Assembly: GCA_947372365.1 (NCBI GenBank)
Contig: CANBTK010000004.1
Span: 1 to 15,117, forward strand
From: Flavipsychrobacter stenotrophus
GTDB taxonomy: Bacteria > Bacteroidota > Bacteroidia > Chitinophagales > Chitinophagaceae
Direction: 5' to 3'
DNA length: 15,117 nucleotides
This document shows positions 5,929 through 12,893 of the stretch, in pieces. The notes beneath the pieces were generated by a model that did not search any database, was not told the DNA's origin, and worked only from the letters and a program-made list of their open reading frames with translations. A program made the translations under genes and the position numbers. The first letter of the stretch is position 1; every line of letters starts with the position of its first letter.

Positions 5929-7866
5929 TTACTGCTTCGTTACCATTTTAGCTGCAAACTTCTTCTGCGCTGTATAGGCTGATATGAAATAAACGCCGGC
6001 CGGATAGTTTTCCTGTATTTCTATTGGCATGTTAGTAGCCGCAGTAAACTCCATCACCTTCTCGCCCAGCAGGTTGGTAATAACAACCTTTACATCCTCT
6101 TGCGTAGCCGATGTTATGTTTAGCATTACTGCCCCATAATTAGGGTTAGGGTAGGCCAGTATTTCATCGGTAACTACTGCCATAGGTACAATACCCGTAT
6201 GGCATACGGCATAAGAACCAACCCTGATTGGGAAAAGCGTAGTGAACGTGCCGCAAGGGTTAGTGTAAGTATATTTAACTGTGTCATGCCCCGGGGTAAG
6301 CGCCGTAACCAGGCCTGCACCCGAAATATTGGTAATAGAGGGGTGAAGGGTTGACCATGTGCCGCCCGGCACAATGTAGCTAAGGGTTGTGGTATCGCCC
6401 GGGCAAATGCTATCCCTGCCTATAATGCTGTAAGTAGCCGTAGGGTTAACATTAACGTGTATTACTGTAGTATCGTAGCCCGTGCCATCAAATACCCTTA
6501 CACTAAATGAATCGGGGCCAAAGTAGCTGGCGAAGGGCGAATAAGTAAGGCCCGAAGGTATCATAGTAACGCCAGTAGATGTAGTGGTATAGCCCACTAC
6601 CAGCGCCCCATGGCCTGCAGCAGTAACTAAAGTCCATATTTCGGTCTGCCCTACATCAATATCATCAACCGCAAGCACAGTATCCAGGTTTACGGTAGCA
6701 GCACCCTGGCATGCCTGCATTGACTGGCTGTGCCCATTTGTAAAAAAGGGTTTATGCAGTGTACTGATAACCCTTACGCGGTCATTGCCATGGTCAGATA
6801 TATAAATCTTGCCCAGTGCCGGTTTAACACAAACCACTGATGGCTGGTTAAGTTCTGCTGAAACAGCAAGGCCGCCATCGCCACTAAAAGCGCCTGAACC
6901 AGTACCTGCCAGGTAGCCGTTACCGGCTATAGTAGATATAATGCCAAAGGAATTTATTTTACGGATAACATTATTGTTTTGGTCGGCAATATAAACGTTG
7001 CCGGTAGAATCAGTAGTAACATCAACCGGGTAATACACCTTAGCTGCCGATGCAGGGCCGCCATCGCCTGTATAGCCGTAAGTGGATGTTGTGGTAGGAT
7101 TGGTAACAGTAGAGATATTACCCGCTGTGTTTATTTTACGAATGCGGTTATTGCCATAGTCGGCAAAATAAATAACGCCAGTACTAGCTACTGAAATGCC
7201 GTGTGGGTATTGTATAATAGCTGCCGTTGCGGGGCCGCCGTCGCCGCCCAGGCCCACCGTGCCAATGCCAGCGATAGTGCTGATAATGCCGGTTGACATA
7301 TTCACTTTACGAATCCTGCAATTTAACTGGTCTGCAATCAGCAGGTCGCCCGAAAGGTCAAAAGCGACGCCCCATGGGTAGTTCAGCTTTGCCGCAGTAG
7401 CTTGTATGCCATCGCTGTTAAAACCAATAGAGCCATTTCCTGCTACCGTAGTAATGATGCCTGTTGACAGATTGATTTTACGCACAACGCTGTGGTCTTC
7501 AGTAAAAAAGAGGTTGCCTGCAGCATCCAGCGTAAGGTAATTAGGCCTTAGTATCTGAGCCGAAACGGCAGGGCCGCCATCGCCTGTATAGCCTGTGCCA
7601 CCTGTGCCGCCTATAGTAGTAATAACGCCCGATGCATCAATTTTCCTTATCCTGTTATTATTCCAGTCTGCGATGTAAACATTGCCCACGCCGTCAGCAG
7701 CAATGCCGCCGGGCTGATTAACTTTTGCGCTTGTGGCTGCACCACCATCACCGCTGAAACCTGCTGTGCCCGTACCAGCAAAAGTATTTATGTTCTGGGC
7801 ATTAGAAACTAATGAAGATACAAGCAAAACTACTAAAGCCGTATAACGTGAAAACCGCGTTGCCAT
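5929..7866 (-). CDS. Secreted six-bladed NHL-repeat protein with Ig-like domains and T9SS type A sorting domain
   Basis: The product is 645 residues and the ATG at 7864-7866 begins a signal peptide (hydrophobic residues 8-22, cut after about 24). Residues 25-366 contain six repeats of about 56-62 residues, marked by G-D-G-G or its variant at 39, 95, 151, 208, 267 and 329. Each is followed by a blade with Y/F-x-A-D-x-x-N-N-R-I-R-K-I, the NHL signature, so a six-bladed beta-propeller is expected. Residues about 370-475 look like an Ig/cadherin-like domain (F-G-P-D-S-F-S-V-R-V-F-D-G), and 476-550 like a second Ig-like domain with S-I-C-P-G-D-T-T-T. Residues about 570-645 form the T9SS type A sorting domain (Y-P-N-P-N at its start, G-V-Y-F-I at its end). 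The protein is predicted to be exported and attached to the cell surface or released. NHL propellers bind proteins or glycans; the ligand is unknown. Confidence 0.9.
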   Translation of the reverse strand: MATRFSRYTALVVLLVSSLVSNAQNINTFAGTGTAGFSGDGGAATSAKVNQPGGIAADGVGNVYIADWNNNRIRKIDASGVITTIGGTGGTGYTGDGGPAVSAQILRPNYLTLDAAGNLFFTEDHSVVRKINLSTGIITTVAGNGSIGFNSDGIQATAAKLNYPWGVAFDLSGDLLIADQLNCRIRKVNMSTGIISTIAGIGTVGLGGDGGPATAAIIQYPHGISVASTGVIYFADYGNNRIRKINTAGNISTVTNPTTTSTYGYTGDGGPASAAKVYYPVDVTTDSTGNVYIADQNNNVIRKINSFGIISTIAGNGYLAGTGSGAFSGDGGLAVSAELNQPSVVCVKPALGKIYISDHGNDRVRVISTLHKPFFTNGHSQSMQACQGAATVNLDTVLAVDDIDVGQTEIWTLVTAAGHGALVVGYTTTSTGVTMIPSGLTYSPFASYFGPDSFSVRVFDGTGYDTTVIHVNVNPTATYSIIGRDSICPGDTTTLSYIVPGGTWSTLHPSITNISGAGLVTALTPGHDTVKYTYTNPCGTFTTLFPIRVGSYAVCHTGIVPMAVVTDEILAYPNPNYGAVMLNITSATQEDVKVVITNLLGEKVMEFTAATNMPIEIQENYPAGVYFISAYTAQKKFAAKMVTKQ

Positions 7867-8042: not shown

Positions 8043-11000
8043 CTATTGAAACAATTTATAACCCACAGTAAAGCGGAAATAGGTTGATGAAATAGCAGTG
8101 TTAACATTATAGCCACCTTGCATATTTACTTTAGCGCTGCCTTGTTGCAGCAGCACATCGGCCAGCCACCTCTTGTTAAACTGGTAGCTAAAGCCTAGCA
8201 TGTAACCCAGCCTGAAGCTGCCGCCGGTAGGCGATGGGTATAGCGGGCCTTTATAACCTGACAAAGGCGTACCTGAATACTGCATAATGCTGGCTATGGA
8301 AGGGTGTGCCTGTACAACCCCCGCACGCACCATATAAGTGGTATCCATTGTTGCCGATATCTGGTTGCTTGTCAAGGTGCTTTCGTGGATGCCCACCAGT
8401 TTTGAATAGCTGATGTTAACCCCACCATAAGCCGAAAGCTTCTTGGTGATGTTGTATTTAATCAGCAATGGCAGTTCAAACTCCAGGTAACGGCCACCGG
8501 CTGCATATGTTTTAACAACCGACTGGTGCGACTGGGTTACTGTATCGTGGTGTACCCAGAAGTCAACAATGCCATTTTGGTTATATATAGGTATTGAGTC
8601 CATCCGCACCTGCGTACTGCTGTTATTCACTTCGTAATAAGATTGTGAACCATCCAGTGTTTTAGATTTTACACCCGCATACTTTATGCCGGGCTGAATC
8701 AGCAATGAGAATTTATTCGACAGCTTGCGCTCCAGGAACGGCGTTATAACAAACTTCTGTGCTGTACCATTGTTAAAGCCACCTTCAAAACCCGCCTTTA
8801 CCCCTACTTCAAAACCGAAGAAAGTACGTGCTGGTTTTCCGGCAGGGTTTTCTGTAGCAGCAGTTGCAGGTGTACTATCTGCTTTAGCCACCTTAGCTAC
8901 CGCAGCACTATCATGCTTAACAGCAGTTGCTGCCTTCGCAGCTTCTGTGACCTTTGCCTGTGCCACAACCGGTTTTACTTCGGCCGCAGCAGGTACGGCC
9001 TTAGCTGGCTGTGCTGTAGCCGTTGCCGCTTCTTTTGCAGGCTGTGTTTTGGCTTCTGGCTGCTTGCTTGTTTTTTTACTGTTGAGTGCCAGCTTAGCAA
9101 CTTCGGTTTTCTCAGCCTTTGTTGCAGCGGCTATGCTATTCCCGGCTTCGCCAGTTTTCTTAGCTGGCTTTTGCTTAGTAGCATGCTTTTGGTTAGCAGC
9201 TACTGGCGGTGCAGCAGCCTCTTCGTTAGCGTCGCCTGCATTATCAGCTGCTTGCTTTACATGCGCAACTGGCTTTGCAGAAAGGCTTGCTTTTGTTGCC
9301 GCAACCTTAGCCACTTTAGCCATTGTTGGTTTGCCAGCGGCAGCTATAGGCTGTTCCTCTGCAATAGTGTTAGCAGGCGAAGCCACGGCTACATGCTTAG
9401 TTGCGCCAGCCTTTTTAGCCTTTGCTTTAACCGCAAGGCCTTCGCCCTGGGTAGTAGCAATCGTTGTTGCCTGCCCTGTTGGCTTAATAGCCAGGCCTTG
9501 CTTTGGCGCAGCTACTGCCGTGCTTCCGGTTTTTGCCATAGCAACTGGCGTATTGCCTGTTACTACTGCCTGCGCAGGCACTTTTGTACCCTTCGCATGG
9601 CTGGTTGCAGCTGTGTTGCCAGCGGTTGCTTTTGCATTTGTTGCTGAAGCAACCGCTTTGGTGATGGCAGGCAGGTTATTCCCGGCTGCATAAGAAGTGA
9701 TAGGGGCAATTACAGGGGCTGAAACGTTTTTAGTTGAATTTGAAGTTGGTGCAGCACTACCCTCTTTAACCTGGGCTGTTGCTGGTATTTTTTGTCCTTT
9801 AGTTACTGTATTTAAATTTGTAGCCTTACCATTTGTGCCTGCAATAGCGGCTGCACTTGTTTTCTCGTTGCCCTTCTGAATACTTGCAGCATTGGTAGCT
9901 TCTTTATTGGCTACCGCCTTATGTGCTGTTGTAGCATCATTTGCAACTACTATTGCAGGCGCTGATTTAGATTTAACAGTGTTGGCTGCTACGCTTTTGC
10001 TTGCAGTAGGCACATTATCAGGTACAATAGCAGTTTCGGCCTTAACCTTTTTGCTGCCAGTTGCCACGTTGCTGTTATTACTGCCTGCAACTTCGCTTTT
10101 AGCCGTTGGCATAGCCTTAGCGCTTACGTTATTGGTAGCCACACTGCCATTCGCCTGTTTGCCTGAAGCACTTCCTGCTGGTGTCAATCTAATGCGTGTG
10201 TTGCGTCCTATAGGTGCTGCTTTAGCAGTAGTATTGTTATGAATGCTGTTAGTTGTTGCCGTTGCTTTGCCTAAAGCCGCTGCGGGCTTACTGCTAACCC
10301 GGGTAGCTGATGCGTAGTTGCTGGCATGTGGGGTAGCCTTTGTGGCCGCCTTGGCACCAAAAACGACATCGTCTTCATCATCACCCACAGGGTTAGAAAT
10401 TGTATTGTCCCTGTGCTCTTCCCTTACATTTACTACTACAGGCTCCGACTCTGCAACCTGTATATTGTTATGTGTGCTGTTCTTTACTATATATTTAATT
10501 ACAGTGGCCTTTACCGATGGTTGTGCTTCTACACTACCCAAGTCGTTATTTACAGGGGCCATCGCCATTGCATTATCCATTGCTATCTTCTTGCCTGTGG
10601 CAGGCTCAGTTACCGGGCGTTCATTTTTCCCCGCCAATGGCTGTGCAGGGGTAACGCTTGCTATAGCTTGTGCAGTGCTATTGGCTGCAATTGCAGGCTG
10701 GCCTTCGTTTTTGTTACTGTGGCGTGTTTGGCCCTTGCCAGCATTAGCTTGTTTCGCCGCAGTACTTTCAGCGGTTGTGTTAACTGTAGTGGCAGCAACT
10801 GCATCCTTGTCCGTATCAAGTGCAGTTTTAGGTTGTGGGGCGGTTGCCTCCGTGTTAGCCTTGGGGGCATAGGCGGTAGCCGCACCATCGCCTGACATTC
10901 GCCATGCAAGCAATGAGCCGCCGCCTACTCCGATGAAGGCAAGCAAAATAATAAACCAAGGCCAGCGATAGTAGATGCCGGGGCGTTTTTTGTCATTATT

Positions 11001-11108
11001 GTCTAACCTTTCCTCTAGAGAATCCCATACGGAGGGAGGCGGGGTTTCGGTATAGCTACCGAGCCCCTCTCTAAAAAGATTATCAATATGTTTTAAGTTT
11101 TGTTCCAT
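8043..11108 (-). CDS. Dma-like dual membrane-spanning putative anti-sigma factor with C-terminal outer-membrane beta-barrel
   Basis: The product is 1021 residues; the ATG at 11106-11108 lies six bases after the sigma-factor stop. Residues 1-48 are cytoplasmic in the model and carry P-P-P-S-V-W-D-S-L-E-E-R-L (23-35), a motif seen in Bacteroidota anti-sigma-like N-termini. Residues 50-69 are a single membrane helix preceded by K-K-R and Y-Y-R, giving N-in topology; there is no cleavable signal. Residues about 73-757 are low-complexity Ala/Lys/Thr/Val/Asn sequence with few aromatics. Residues about 762-1021 form a small barrel of the PorT / OMP_b-brl type, beginning F-F-G-F-E-V-G-V-K-A-G and ending F-R-F-T-V-G-Y-K-L-F-Q. 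I see no cysteine anywhere. Known (from memory): dual membrane-spanning anti-sigma factors paired with ECF21 sigma factors in Bacteroides control envelope functions. Inference: this protein does the same for the upstream sigma factor. Alternatively it could be a barrel tethered to the inner membrane without an anti-sigma role. Confidence 0.8.
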   Translation of the reverse strand: MEQNLKHIDNLFREGLGSYTETPPPSVWDSLEERLDNNDKKRPGIYYRWPWFIILLAFIGVGGGSLLAWRMSGDGAATAYAPKANTEATAPQPKTALDTDKDAVAATTVNTTAESTAAKQANAGKGQTRHSNKNEGQPAIAANSTAQAIASVTPAQPLAGKNERPVTEPATGKKIAMDNAMAMAPVNNDLGSVEAQPSVKATVIKYIVKNSTHNNIQVAESEPVVVNVREEHRDNTISNPVGDDEDDVVFGAKAATKATPHASNYASATRVSSKPAAALGKATATTNSIHNNTTAKAAPIGRNTRIRLTPAGSASGKQANGSVATNNVSAKAMPTAKSEVAGSNNSNVATGSKKVKAETAIVPDNVPTASKSVAANTVKSKSAPAIVVANDATTAHKAVANKEATNAASIQKGNEKTSAAAIAGTNGKATNLNTVTKGQKIPATAQVKEGSAAPTSNSTKNVSAPVIAPITSYAAGNNLPAITKAVASATNAKATAGNTAATSHAKGTKVPAQAVVTGNTPVAMAKTGSTAVAAPKQGLAIKPTGQATTIATTQGEGLAVKAKAKKAGATKHVAVASPANTIAEEQPIAAAGKPTMAKVAKVAATKASLSAKPVAHVKQAADNAGDANEEAAAPPVAANQKHATKQKPAKKTGEAGNSIAAATKAEKTEVAKLALNSKKTSKQPEAKTQPAKEAATATAQPAKAVPAAAEVKPVVAQAKVTEAAKAATAVKHDSAAVAKVAKADSTPATAATENPAGKPARTFFGFEVGVKAGFEGGFNNGTAQKFVITPFLERKLSNKFSLLIQPGIKYAGVKSKTLDGSQSYYEVNNSSTQVRMDSIPIYNQNGIVDFWVHHDTVTQSHQSVVKTYAAGGRYLEFELPLLIKYNITKKLSAYGGVNISYSKLVGIHESTLTSNQISATMDTTYMVRAGVVQAHPSIASIMQYSGTPLSGYKGPLYPSPTGGSFRLGYMLGFSYQFNKRWLADVLLQQGSAKVNMQGGYNVNTAISSTYFRFTVGYKLFQ

Positions 11109-11114
11109 TTTCTC

Positions 11115-11711
11115 TTATTGGGTAATAATAAATTGTAGTTTCTCCCTTAGCCTTCTCCTCGCATCATTCAGGTACCACCTACTATTGTTTTCATTTATAT
11201 TTAGTAATGCTGCTATTTCTTTGTGTGGGTAATTTTCAAAAACAAAAAGGTTAAAAACTGCAAGCTGAGCCTCCGGCAGCGTATTTACAAGTACTAATAG
11301 CTCCTTATACGAAAGGTTTTGTACCGAACTGCTCTCAACAAAGCCATCATCGGGCTCTACCTCCTTGTGGTATTGCTCCTCCTTTATATTCTTCCTCAGG
11401 TAATCCGTAACAGTGTTTACAACAATCCTCCTTATCCACCCTTCAAACGCACCCTGAAAAGAATATTGCCCCAGCTTGCTGAAAATCTTATAAAACGAAT
11501 CATTTAGCAATTCCTTGGCAGCCTGCTCGTTATTATACATGTACCGTTTTATAACACCATAGGCTGCGGGGGCATACATATCATACAGCTTTTTCTGCGC
11601 ACTCCTTGACTGGGCTATGCATTCCTTCACCAGCAAATGAAGCCCTTCCTCCTTAGGATGGCCCGCCTGCTGTGTTGGTAAAAAACCCTGTATGGATATT
11701 GCGTCAGTCAA
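11115..11711 (-). CDS. ECF-type RNA polymerase sigma factor (sigma-70 family, ECF21-like)
   Basis: The product is 198 residues. Region 2 spans about 33-107, with the core-binding segment A-K-E-L-L-N-D-S-F-Y-K-I-F and the promoter-melting segment E-G-W-I-R-R-I-V-V-N-T-V-T-D-Y-L-R-K (90-107). Region 4 spans about 137-192, with L-P-E-A-Q-L-A-V-F-N-L-F and a helix-turn-helix Y-P-H-K-E-I-A-A-L-L-N-I-N-E-N-N-S-R. The start is taken as TTG at 11709-11711. The first Met inside is residue 45, within region 2, and the upstream frame meets a stop before any ATG, so a non-ATG start is needed. The stop codon is six bases from the next gene, implying translational coupling. The protein should direct RNA polymerase to a small regulon when released by the adjacent membrane protein. 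The ECF21 subgroup is assigned by resemblance and by the partner, not by alignment. Confidence 0.9.
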   Translation of the reverse strand: MTDAISIQGFLPTQQAGHPKEEGLHLLVKECIAQSRSAQKKLYDMYAPAAYGVIKRYMYNNEQAAKELLNDSFYKIFSKLGQYSFQGAFEGWIRRIVVNTVTDYLRKNIKEEQYHKEVEPDDGFVESSSVQNLSYKELLVLVNTLPEAQLAVFNLFVFENYPHKEIAALLNINENNSRWYLNDARRRLREKLQFIITQ

Positions 11712-11787
11712 GTTTTGATATAATTTAATTACTATATTTATCGTACCGATTCATCAACCCTCAACTACCATGACGAGGTTGCAAGGC

Positions 11788-11796
11788 CAAACGTTA
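11788..11796 (-). promoter_or_regulatory. Possible -7 element for the sigma-factor operon (near-consensus)
   Basis: The minus strand reads TAACGTTTG, one base longer than TAnnTTTG, with a minus-strand TTG (11819-11821) 22 bases upstream of it. It would give a leader of roughly 75 bases before the TTG start at 11711. This is a weak match, and the operon may instead be transcribed by its own ECF factor. Confidence 0.2.
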
Positions 11797-11901
11797 GTGT
11801 TTAAAAAAAATATTTTTCCAAGTTACTAACATTTACCTTTGAAACTGCGTCTGATAAGTAGCGGAAAAGTAAAATATCGTTATACCATTGTAGAAAAACG
11901 T

Positions 11902-12014: not shown

Positions 12015-12893
12015 ATGAAATTGATTTTTCCTTTCTTCATACTTCTACTTATTTCAGCATCAGGCAGTGCCCAGGTATCAGCACTGAATGAAAATTTCGA
12101 TATTTCATGTGCTACAAGTACCGGCCCCAGCTATCCTACATATTGGTCAGGTTTTTGTATGTACTCACCGGCTAGCGCACTTGGCTGGAACTGCTCACCG
12201 CTAGGTGGCAGGGGCTCTACACCAGGCTTTGACTGCAATAGTTACATTGCAGGTGTACATTATACCGATACTGCATGGCTCTTTACCCCAATTCTTAACC
12301 TTTCAGGCAATTCCGACAACATCTTTATCCGTTACGACTCTAAATACGAATTTGCAGCTTCCAAATTAAAAGTACTGGTTTCCAGCGATTACGTTAAATA
12401 TACAAGGCCTGACTCTAATGGCGTGGACTGGAATGAAATAAGCACTACTGCAATGCCAGAGATAGGCCATGATGATTCGCTGGACTGGGTTACACACTTT
12501 ATTGACCTTACTTCTTTTAAAGCCACTCCTTTTATTGTTGCATTTAAATATACATCTACCAATGTATCTGGCGGCCGCTGGACGATAGACAACATCATGA
12601 CTACCCCATGGGGTTTAAATGTTACTAACCTCAGTAAGGAAGCATTGCCTATCTCTATTTTGGGTACCCCTAACAGTTCTCAGATTAATGTTTCCTGTAC
12701 ATTCGCTTTAGCAGGTGCCTACAAACTGGCCATATATGACCTCATGGGCCGTGTAGCTTATTCGCAAGAGCTGCACACCCGCAGTGGCACTCAGGATTTT
12801 GTACTGGATGGCCTGTCGCTTAACAAGGGTATGTATTTCGTAAAAATAAGCAACAACAGCACTTACGGCGCTGCAAAAGCTATGGTGGAGTAA
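12015..12893 (+). CDS. Secreted choice-of-anchor-J-like protein with T9SS type A sorting domain
   Basis: The product is 292 residues. The signal peptide is M-K-L-I-F-P-F-F-I-L-L-L-I-S-A-S-G-S-A-Q, cut near residue 20. The central part (about 23-200) starts with L-N-E-N-F-D and runs through W-L-F-T-P-I-L-N-L, V-D-W-N-E-I-S and G-G-R-W-T-I-D-N-I. These are hallmarks of the choice-of-anchor-J jelly-roll fold seen in Bacteroidota secreted adhesins and peptidase partners. Several Cys residues in the first 80 positions could form disulfides. Residues about 210-292 form a T9SS sorting domain (Y-K-L-A-I-Y-D-L-M-G-R-V, then G-M-Y-F-V-K-I). The protein would be exported by T9SS and anchored on the surface. 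It is divergent from the sigma-factor operon, making it a positional candidate for control by that system. No catalytic domain is visible. Confidence 0.82.
   Translation: MKLIFPFFILLLISASGSAQVSALNENFDISCATSTGPSYPTYWSGFCMYSPASALGWNCSPLGGRGSTPGFDCNSYIAGVHYTDTAWLFTPILNLSGNSDNIFIRYDSKYEFAASKLKVLVSSDYVKYTRPDSNGVDWNEISTTAMPEIGHDDSLDWVTHFIDLTSFKATPFIVAFKYTSTNVSGGRWTIDNIMTTPWGLNVTNLSKEALPISILGTPNSSQINVSCTFALAGAYKLAIYDLMGRVAYSQELHTRSGTQDFVLDGLSLNKGMYFVKISNNSTYGAAKAMVE

Follow-up and report, generated by a model that had tools for sequence, protein, structure and literature searches.

The window, the whole stretch of 15,117 nucleotides of DNA that was analysed, carries an ECF sigma factor gene and a long partner gene which, to judge from sequence and structure prediction, constitute a Chitinophagales member of the known Dma class, and T9SS cargo is probably a main output of this pair. 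The predicted T9SS output is the new part, the layout being already known from the Dma family. Dma proteins are dual membrane-spanning anti-sigma factors, with Dma1/Das1 and Dma2/Das2 (BT_1558/BT_1559) of Bacteroides thetaiotaomicron as examples, and their order is given, in the available part of PMC13088901, as an N-terminal anti-sigma domain, a TM helix, a long disordered tether and a C-terminal barrel, with an adjacent sigma factor. The pair was placed in this class because both its gene order and its domain order match that published layout; its ECF sigma factor is called Das here, after the Bacteroides Das1/Das2. The features of the locus are compiled in Table 1.

Table 1. Features of the Dma-type locus (positions in the window)
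Feature	Position	Strand	Details or basis
ECF sigma factor gene	11115..11711	-	198 aa, TTG start
Dma-type protein gene	8043..11108	-	1021 aa
Dma-type residues 1-48, conserved Trp/PPP module, presumed anti-sigma domain	10965..11108	-	sequence
Dma-type residues 49-71, transmembrane helix	10896..10964	-	structure model, hydropathy
Dma-type residues 72-762, disordered Ala/Thr/Lys-rich linker	8823..10895	-	model, conservation
Dma-type residues 204-225, low-confidence beta-hairpin within linker	10434..10499	-	model, local conservation
Dma-type residues 763-1021, 8-stranded OmpA/OprF-like barrel	8046..8822	-	model, structure comparison
ECF-type promoter TAACGTTT-N13-CGTCA, facing sigma gene	11771..11796	-	genus alignment, motif match
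ECF-type promoter TAACATTT-N13-CGTCT, facing divergent gene	11827..11852	+	genus alignment, motif match
Divergent secreted protein: choice-of-anchor J and T9SS type A sorting domain	12015..12893	+	domain matches

The source genome comprises 3.0 Mb in 568 contigs and is 71% complete; a second sigma/Dma-like pair in it (L002:1474-3100) runs off a contig end. An earlier note on this DNA had described a sigma gene followed, after a gap of 6 bp, by a long partner, and the gene coordinates agree. The sigma factor is recognised by both Pfam and NCBIfam models, with a score of 79.7 bits against TIGR02985, below the model cut-off of 126.4, and its nearest named relatives include Flavipsychrobacter and other Chitinophagales assemblies. 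Its TTG start (window 11709-11711, minus strand) is the same in all ten aligned loci of the genus, where TTGAC is invariant. The divergent T9SS gene adjoins the pair in 10 of the 10 genus genomes that have the pair. On the other side, 3' of the Dma-type gene, window 5929-7866 (minus strand) encodes a T9SS-sorted NHL-repeat protein that has no promoter motif match, and an NHL-type protein also lies behind the Dma-type gene in L007 and L009.

The partner gave no Pfam or NCBIfam match above cut-off, and no FecR domain was found among Pfam matches examined up to an E value of 1; a TonB-receptor/FecR scheme was discarded on this ground. Modelled by AlphaFold2 as a single chain from a 49-sequence alignment, the partner shows predicted helices at residues 9-15, 25-36 and 49-71, modest confidence over residues 1-50 (pLDDT 52-70), pLDDT below 50 over most of residues 73-754, and a C-terminal block at pLDDT 82-97, which structure comparison (VIA-align) assigns to the OmpA/OprF kind, OmpA-type barrels being among the matches listed. 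The note's sequence of N-terminal module, single helix, long disordered linker and C-terminal barrel is thus borne out by the model and by the relatives, and its proposed modelling of the C-terminal region did return a barrel. Conservation is high at residues 1-40 and 761-1021 and low between them, except near 201-220. The beta-hairpin predicted in the linker coincides with a locally conserved YIVKNSTHNNIQVAE-like stretch; as a mark of the family the linker motif was abandoned, its strict regular expression having matched just 6 of 109 proteins. An N-in orientation of the helix is suggested by the positive charges that precede it. Across the 49 aligned proteins the linker measures 173-745 residues, with ≈ 691 in the window protein.

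The layout recurs among relatives, for which 80 sigma homologues from named assemblies were collected. A partner of at least 360 aa follows the sigma gene in 73 of the 80, and 70 of these 73 carry the Trp module and the helix (the call was missing in L060, L061 and L063); by hydropathy the helix passes in 71 of the 73 and a second segment in none. Used on its own as a database query, the barrel returned 28 proteins, 27 of them with the N-terminal module and helix, and a search with partner residues 1-80 returned 11. Profile alignment with hhalign over 68 columns matched the N-terminal module to that of the distant sigma partners (E 2.8e-16), profile comparison matched the barrel to that of Flavobacterium partners (E 5.9e-16), and the model of the Flavobacterium tructae partner repeats the published Dma order with helices at 3-11, 22-33 and 42-62, then disorder, and a barrel at 363-597. 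Among the 71 long partners scanned, the Pfam barrel models PF13568 and PF13505 match 38 and 7, so that the barrels of the remaining long partners rest on the two modelled proteins and the alignment. The seven short partners (160-182 aa; L062, L064, L066, L085, L103, L113, L117) have the Trp module and helix and no room for a barrel; their sigma relatives are mostly titled Bacteroidales or Bacteroidetes, and several share an INPDTI-like C-terminal tail. That the partner is no more than an exported barrel of the usual kind, without any signalling, its helix being a cleaved signal peptide or its barrel never reaching the outer membrane, is hardly credible, given that 48 conserved residues precede the helix, that 79 of the 80 partners sit -65 to +60 bp from the sigma gene, and that the seven short partners retain module and helix without the barrel, as would be expected if these two parts act on the sigma factor.

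The gap upstream of the sigma gene contains two opposed putative ECF promoters of the form TAACRTTT-N13-CGTCW. In the aligned loci of the genus (n = 10; L007 spans the sigma side only) CTAAC and CGTCA are invariant towards the sigma gene, and a mirrored pair points towards the divergent gene. The window holds two motif matches, a number reached in 0 of 200 shuffles. Of 20 close sigma genes (L038-L059, two of which were excluded for too little upstream DNA), 16 have the shorter form TAAC-N17-CGTC in front of them (L046, L047, L050 and L051 lack it), versus 0 of 58 distant ones, one of which had just 126 bp upstream (Fisher p 3e-13). Within the genus (11 genomes), 60 motif sites were counted against 33 for the reversed pattern, and the spacer is N13 in 53 of the 58 sites examined, though 12-14 were allowed.

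Across the genomes of the family the putative promoter motif follows the presence of the predicted Das sigma factor. The scan covered 147 genomes, 20 of them with the sigma at E 1e-45 or better, and found 42 strict sites in these 20 (0.54/Mb) versus 56 in 126 genomes without it (0.10/Mb; p 6e-7). The contrast persists without two congeners (p 8e-6), after removal of 13 sigma-locus sites (p 0.002) and after both removals (p 0.014), the last two being conservative as they subtract solely from the sigma-bearing side. Genome G122 was left out of the counts because its 83 motif copies represent one dispersed repeat; in this 2.3 Mb genome the motif lies inside the repeat (L293-L300) by chance or descent, and many copies sit at contig ends. 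In G124, which was kept in the group without sigma despite a truncated sigma match, a motif is found 111 bp before that truncated, 56% identical sigma gene (G124:C109:3755-4193).

The genes behind the motif point to T9SS cargo. In the genus 58 of the 60 sites were examined, the remaining two being sigma promoters that the genus alignment had covered: 6 lie before the sigma gene, 5 before the divergent T9SS gene, 8 before a second ECF sigma gene and 26 before another gene; 3 fall inside frames, and 10 have no frame of 150 aa behind them. Five of the 26 were left out of the protein scan (three contig-end cuts, one N12 site, one antisense frame), and a T9SS type A sorting domain was found in 18 of the 21 complete downstream proteins scanned. 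With 109 to at least 150 T9SS domains per genus genome, this is far above a rough background of 5-10%, a comparison that is itself rough because the cargo families are few. Behind a scrambled motif T9SS proteins stood at 1 of 20 sites (20 of 32 taken, the 4 with a frame of at least 150 aa scanned). In the other genera with the sigma, 7 promoters facing the sigma gene and 2 sites at the second sigma gene were set aside and all 19 others examined; T9SS proteins follow 16 of the 19, three of them being the divergent neighbour and one (L263) falling below the curated cut-off. In genomes without the sigma, T9SS was found behind 1 of 20 sites (L289 in G121), these 20 having been taken by hand from 56 and proteins scanned at 10, the rest showing short frames only. 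The difference is significant (Fisher p 4e-7) and remains so without the three sigma-locus neighbours (13/16 vs 1/20, p 3e-6), with the reservation that the counts are not independent because the cargo proteins fall in few families. For the incomplete genome that contains the window, the predicted cargo link is thin: the first pattern gives four sites outside the locus, three without a downstream gene and the fourth (L123) before a metalloprotease-like gene that is cut by the contig and in which no T9SS domain was seen; three further sites from a second pattern lie outside the four examined.

The second ECF sigma factor, whose gene is present in 122 of the 147 family genomes and which we take to be SigP-like, is another possible reader of these promoters. 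The layout would then still be of Dma type, while Das would control its own operon only, perhaps together with the divergent gene. For this speak the motif upstream of the second sigma gene in 8 of the 11 genus genomes, a related CAACG...CGTCT site that 3 of 20 Das-less genomes (L191, L195, L197) have in the corresponding position, and the control of T9SS machinery genes by SigP in P. gingivalis, as given in the available text of PMC7712824. Against it, the second sigma is near-universal, yet both motif density and the T9SS genes behind the motif track Das, and the regions upstream of the second sigma gene reach higher scores where Das is present (p 2.5e-5). Reader and target are not cleanly separable by sequence, because the second sigma gene has a similar upstream site even in some genomes that lack Das, and its listing as an undisputed Das target was withdrawn owing to these related sites. 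On balance, the reading of the cargo promoters by the second sigma appears unlikely, and Das is preferred.

In the mechanism proposed for the Dma-type pair, residues 1-48 would hold the ECF sigma factor at the inner membrane, the predicted uncleaved helix would anchor the protein, the disordered linker would cross the periplasm, and the OmpA-like barrel is predicted to reside in the outer membrane. The sigma factor would be freed in response to some condition that the barrel encounters at the surface or in the outer membrane, or to a failure of barrel assembly. Regulated proteolysis would be the favoured route of release, because a slack linker that ranges from 173 to 745 residues among relatives makes a poor lever; a mechanical lever was disfavoured in view of this fourfold variation between two conserved ends. 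Free sigma may then read the TAACRTTT-N13-CGTCW promoters of its own operon, of the divergent T9SS protein gene and of T9SS cargo genes elsewhere. The earlier note had interpreted the pair as a distant Dma/sigma system, of the kind that influences vesiculation; its layout part is supported, and as the output the promoters point instead to T9SS-exported surface proteins. That vesiculation is the main output, with direct signalling and no proteolysis, is very improbable. In its favour, the layout is shared with Dma1 and Dma2, whose mutants overproduce vesicles; against it, those two act through different routes, as far as the available text of PMC13088901 goes, and no NigD-like or PUL gene was conspicuous in the scan of downstream proteins. 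A more speculative extension of the cargo reading, to which we give only a small chance, is that the barrel reads the choice-of-anchor J protein, which is encoded divergently and exported by the T9SS, or else T9SS output as a whole, such that cargo transcription tracks export and anchoring. If true, such a cargo switch with surface feedback would parallel PorA of P. gingivalis, and one spanning anti-sigma factor would replace a two-component system in T9SS feedback.

In this context the pair should be compared with known systems. FecI/FecR/TonB-receptor surface signalling employs three separate proteins; there, as in the present proposal, outer-membrane information reaches an ECF sigma factor, whereas the pair here consists of sigma and one polypeptide in which no FecR domain was found. 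Dma proteins are a recent discovery, described chiefly in gut Bacteroides. A clade whose predicted targets form one coherent class, T9SS cargo, would furnish a hypothesis, open to test, on what is sensed by an anti-sigma factor that spans both membranes; with linkers running from 173 to 745 residues, the relatives also provide a natural experiment on lever function. As in B. thetaiotaomicron Dma1/Dma2, a sigma factor stands beside one protein of the same four-part order, a likeness by the layout described in the available part of PMC13088901 and not by direct sequence alignment; unlike them, the present pair has a Chitinophagales host, a 691-residue linker and a predicted output of T9SS cargo in place of vesicles or PULs. 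Phocaeicola vulgatus M0N98_03761/03760 comprises an anti-sigma factor predicted to span the periplasm and to have an outer-membrane barrel, downstream of its sigma factor, and a similar pair in B. fragilis is cited; the Phocaeicola pair differs in mediating a protective response to toxins with longer O-antigen, envelope stress being the suggested signal in the available text (PMC9308784). In the open-access literature no Dma-T9SS link was found, and the closest report concerns Flavobacterium psychrophilum, where the SM6 promoters, of ECF type with a CGT box, are located at genes for T9SS components and at a sigma/anti-sigma operon; they differ in marking T9SS machinery rather than cargo, and the text available leaves the responsible sigma open and gives no architecture for the anti-sigma factor (PMC9723704). 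In P. gingivalis, PorXY-SigP resembles the proposal here in that an ECF sigma factor governs T9SS genes, and PorA, a T9SS C-terminal-domain protein, relays a surface signal; that route differs in its two-component system and its T9SS machinery targets, with no spanning anti-sigma described in the accessible portion of PMC7712824. The Dma-type pair thus represents a candidate T9SS cargo regulator, separate from the machinery-level PorXY-SigP route.
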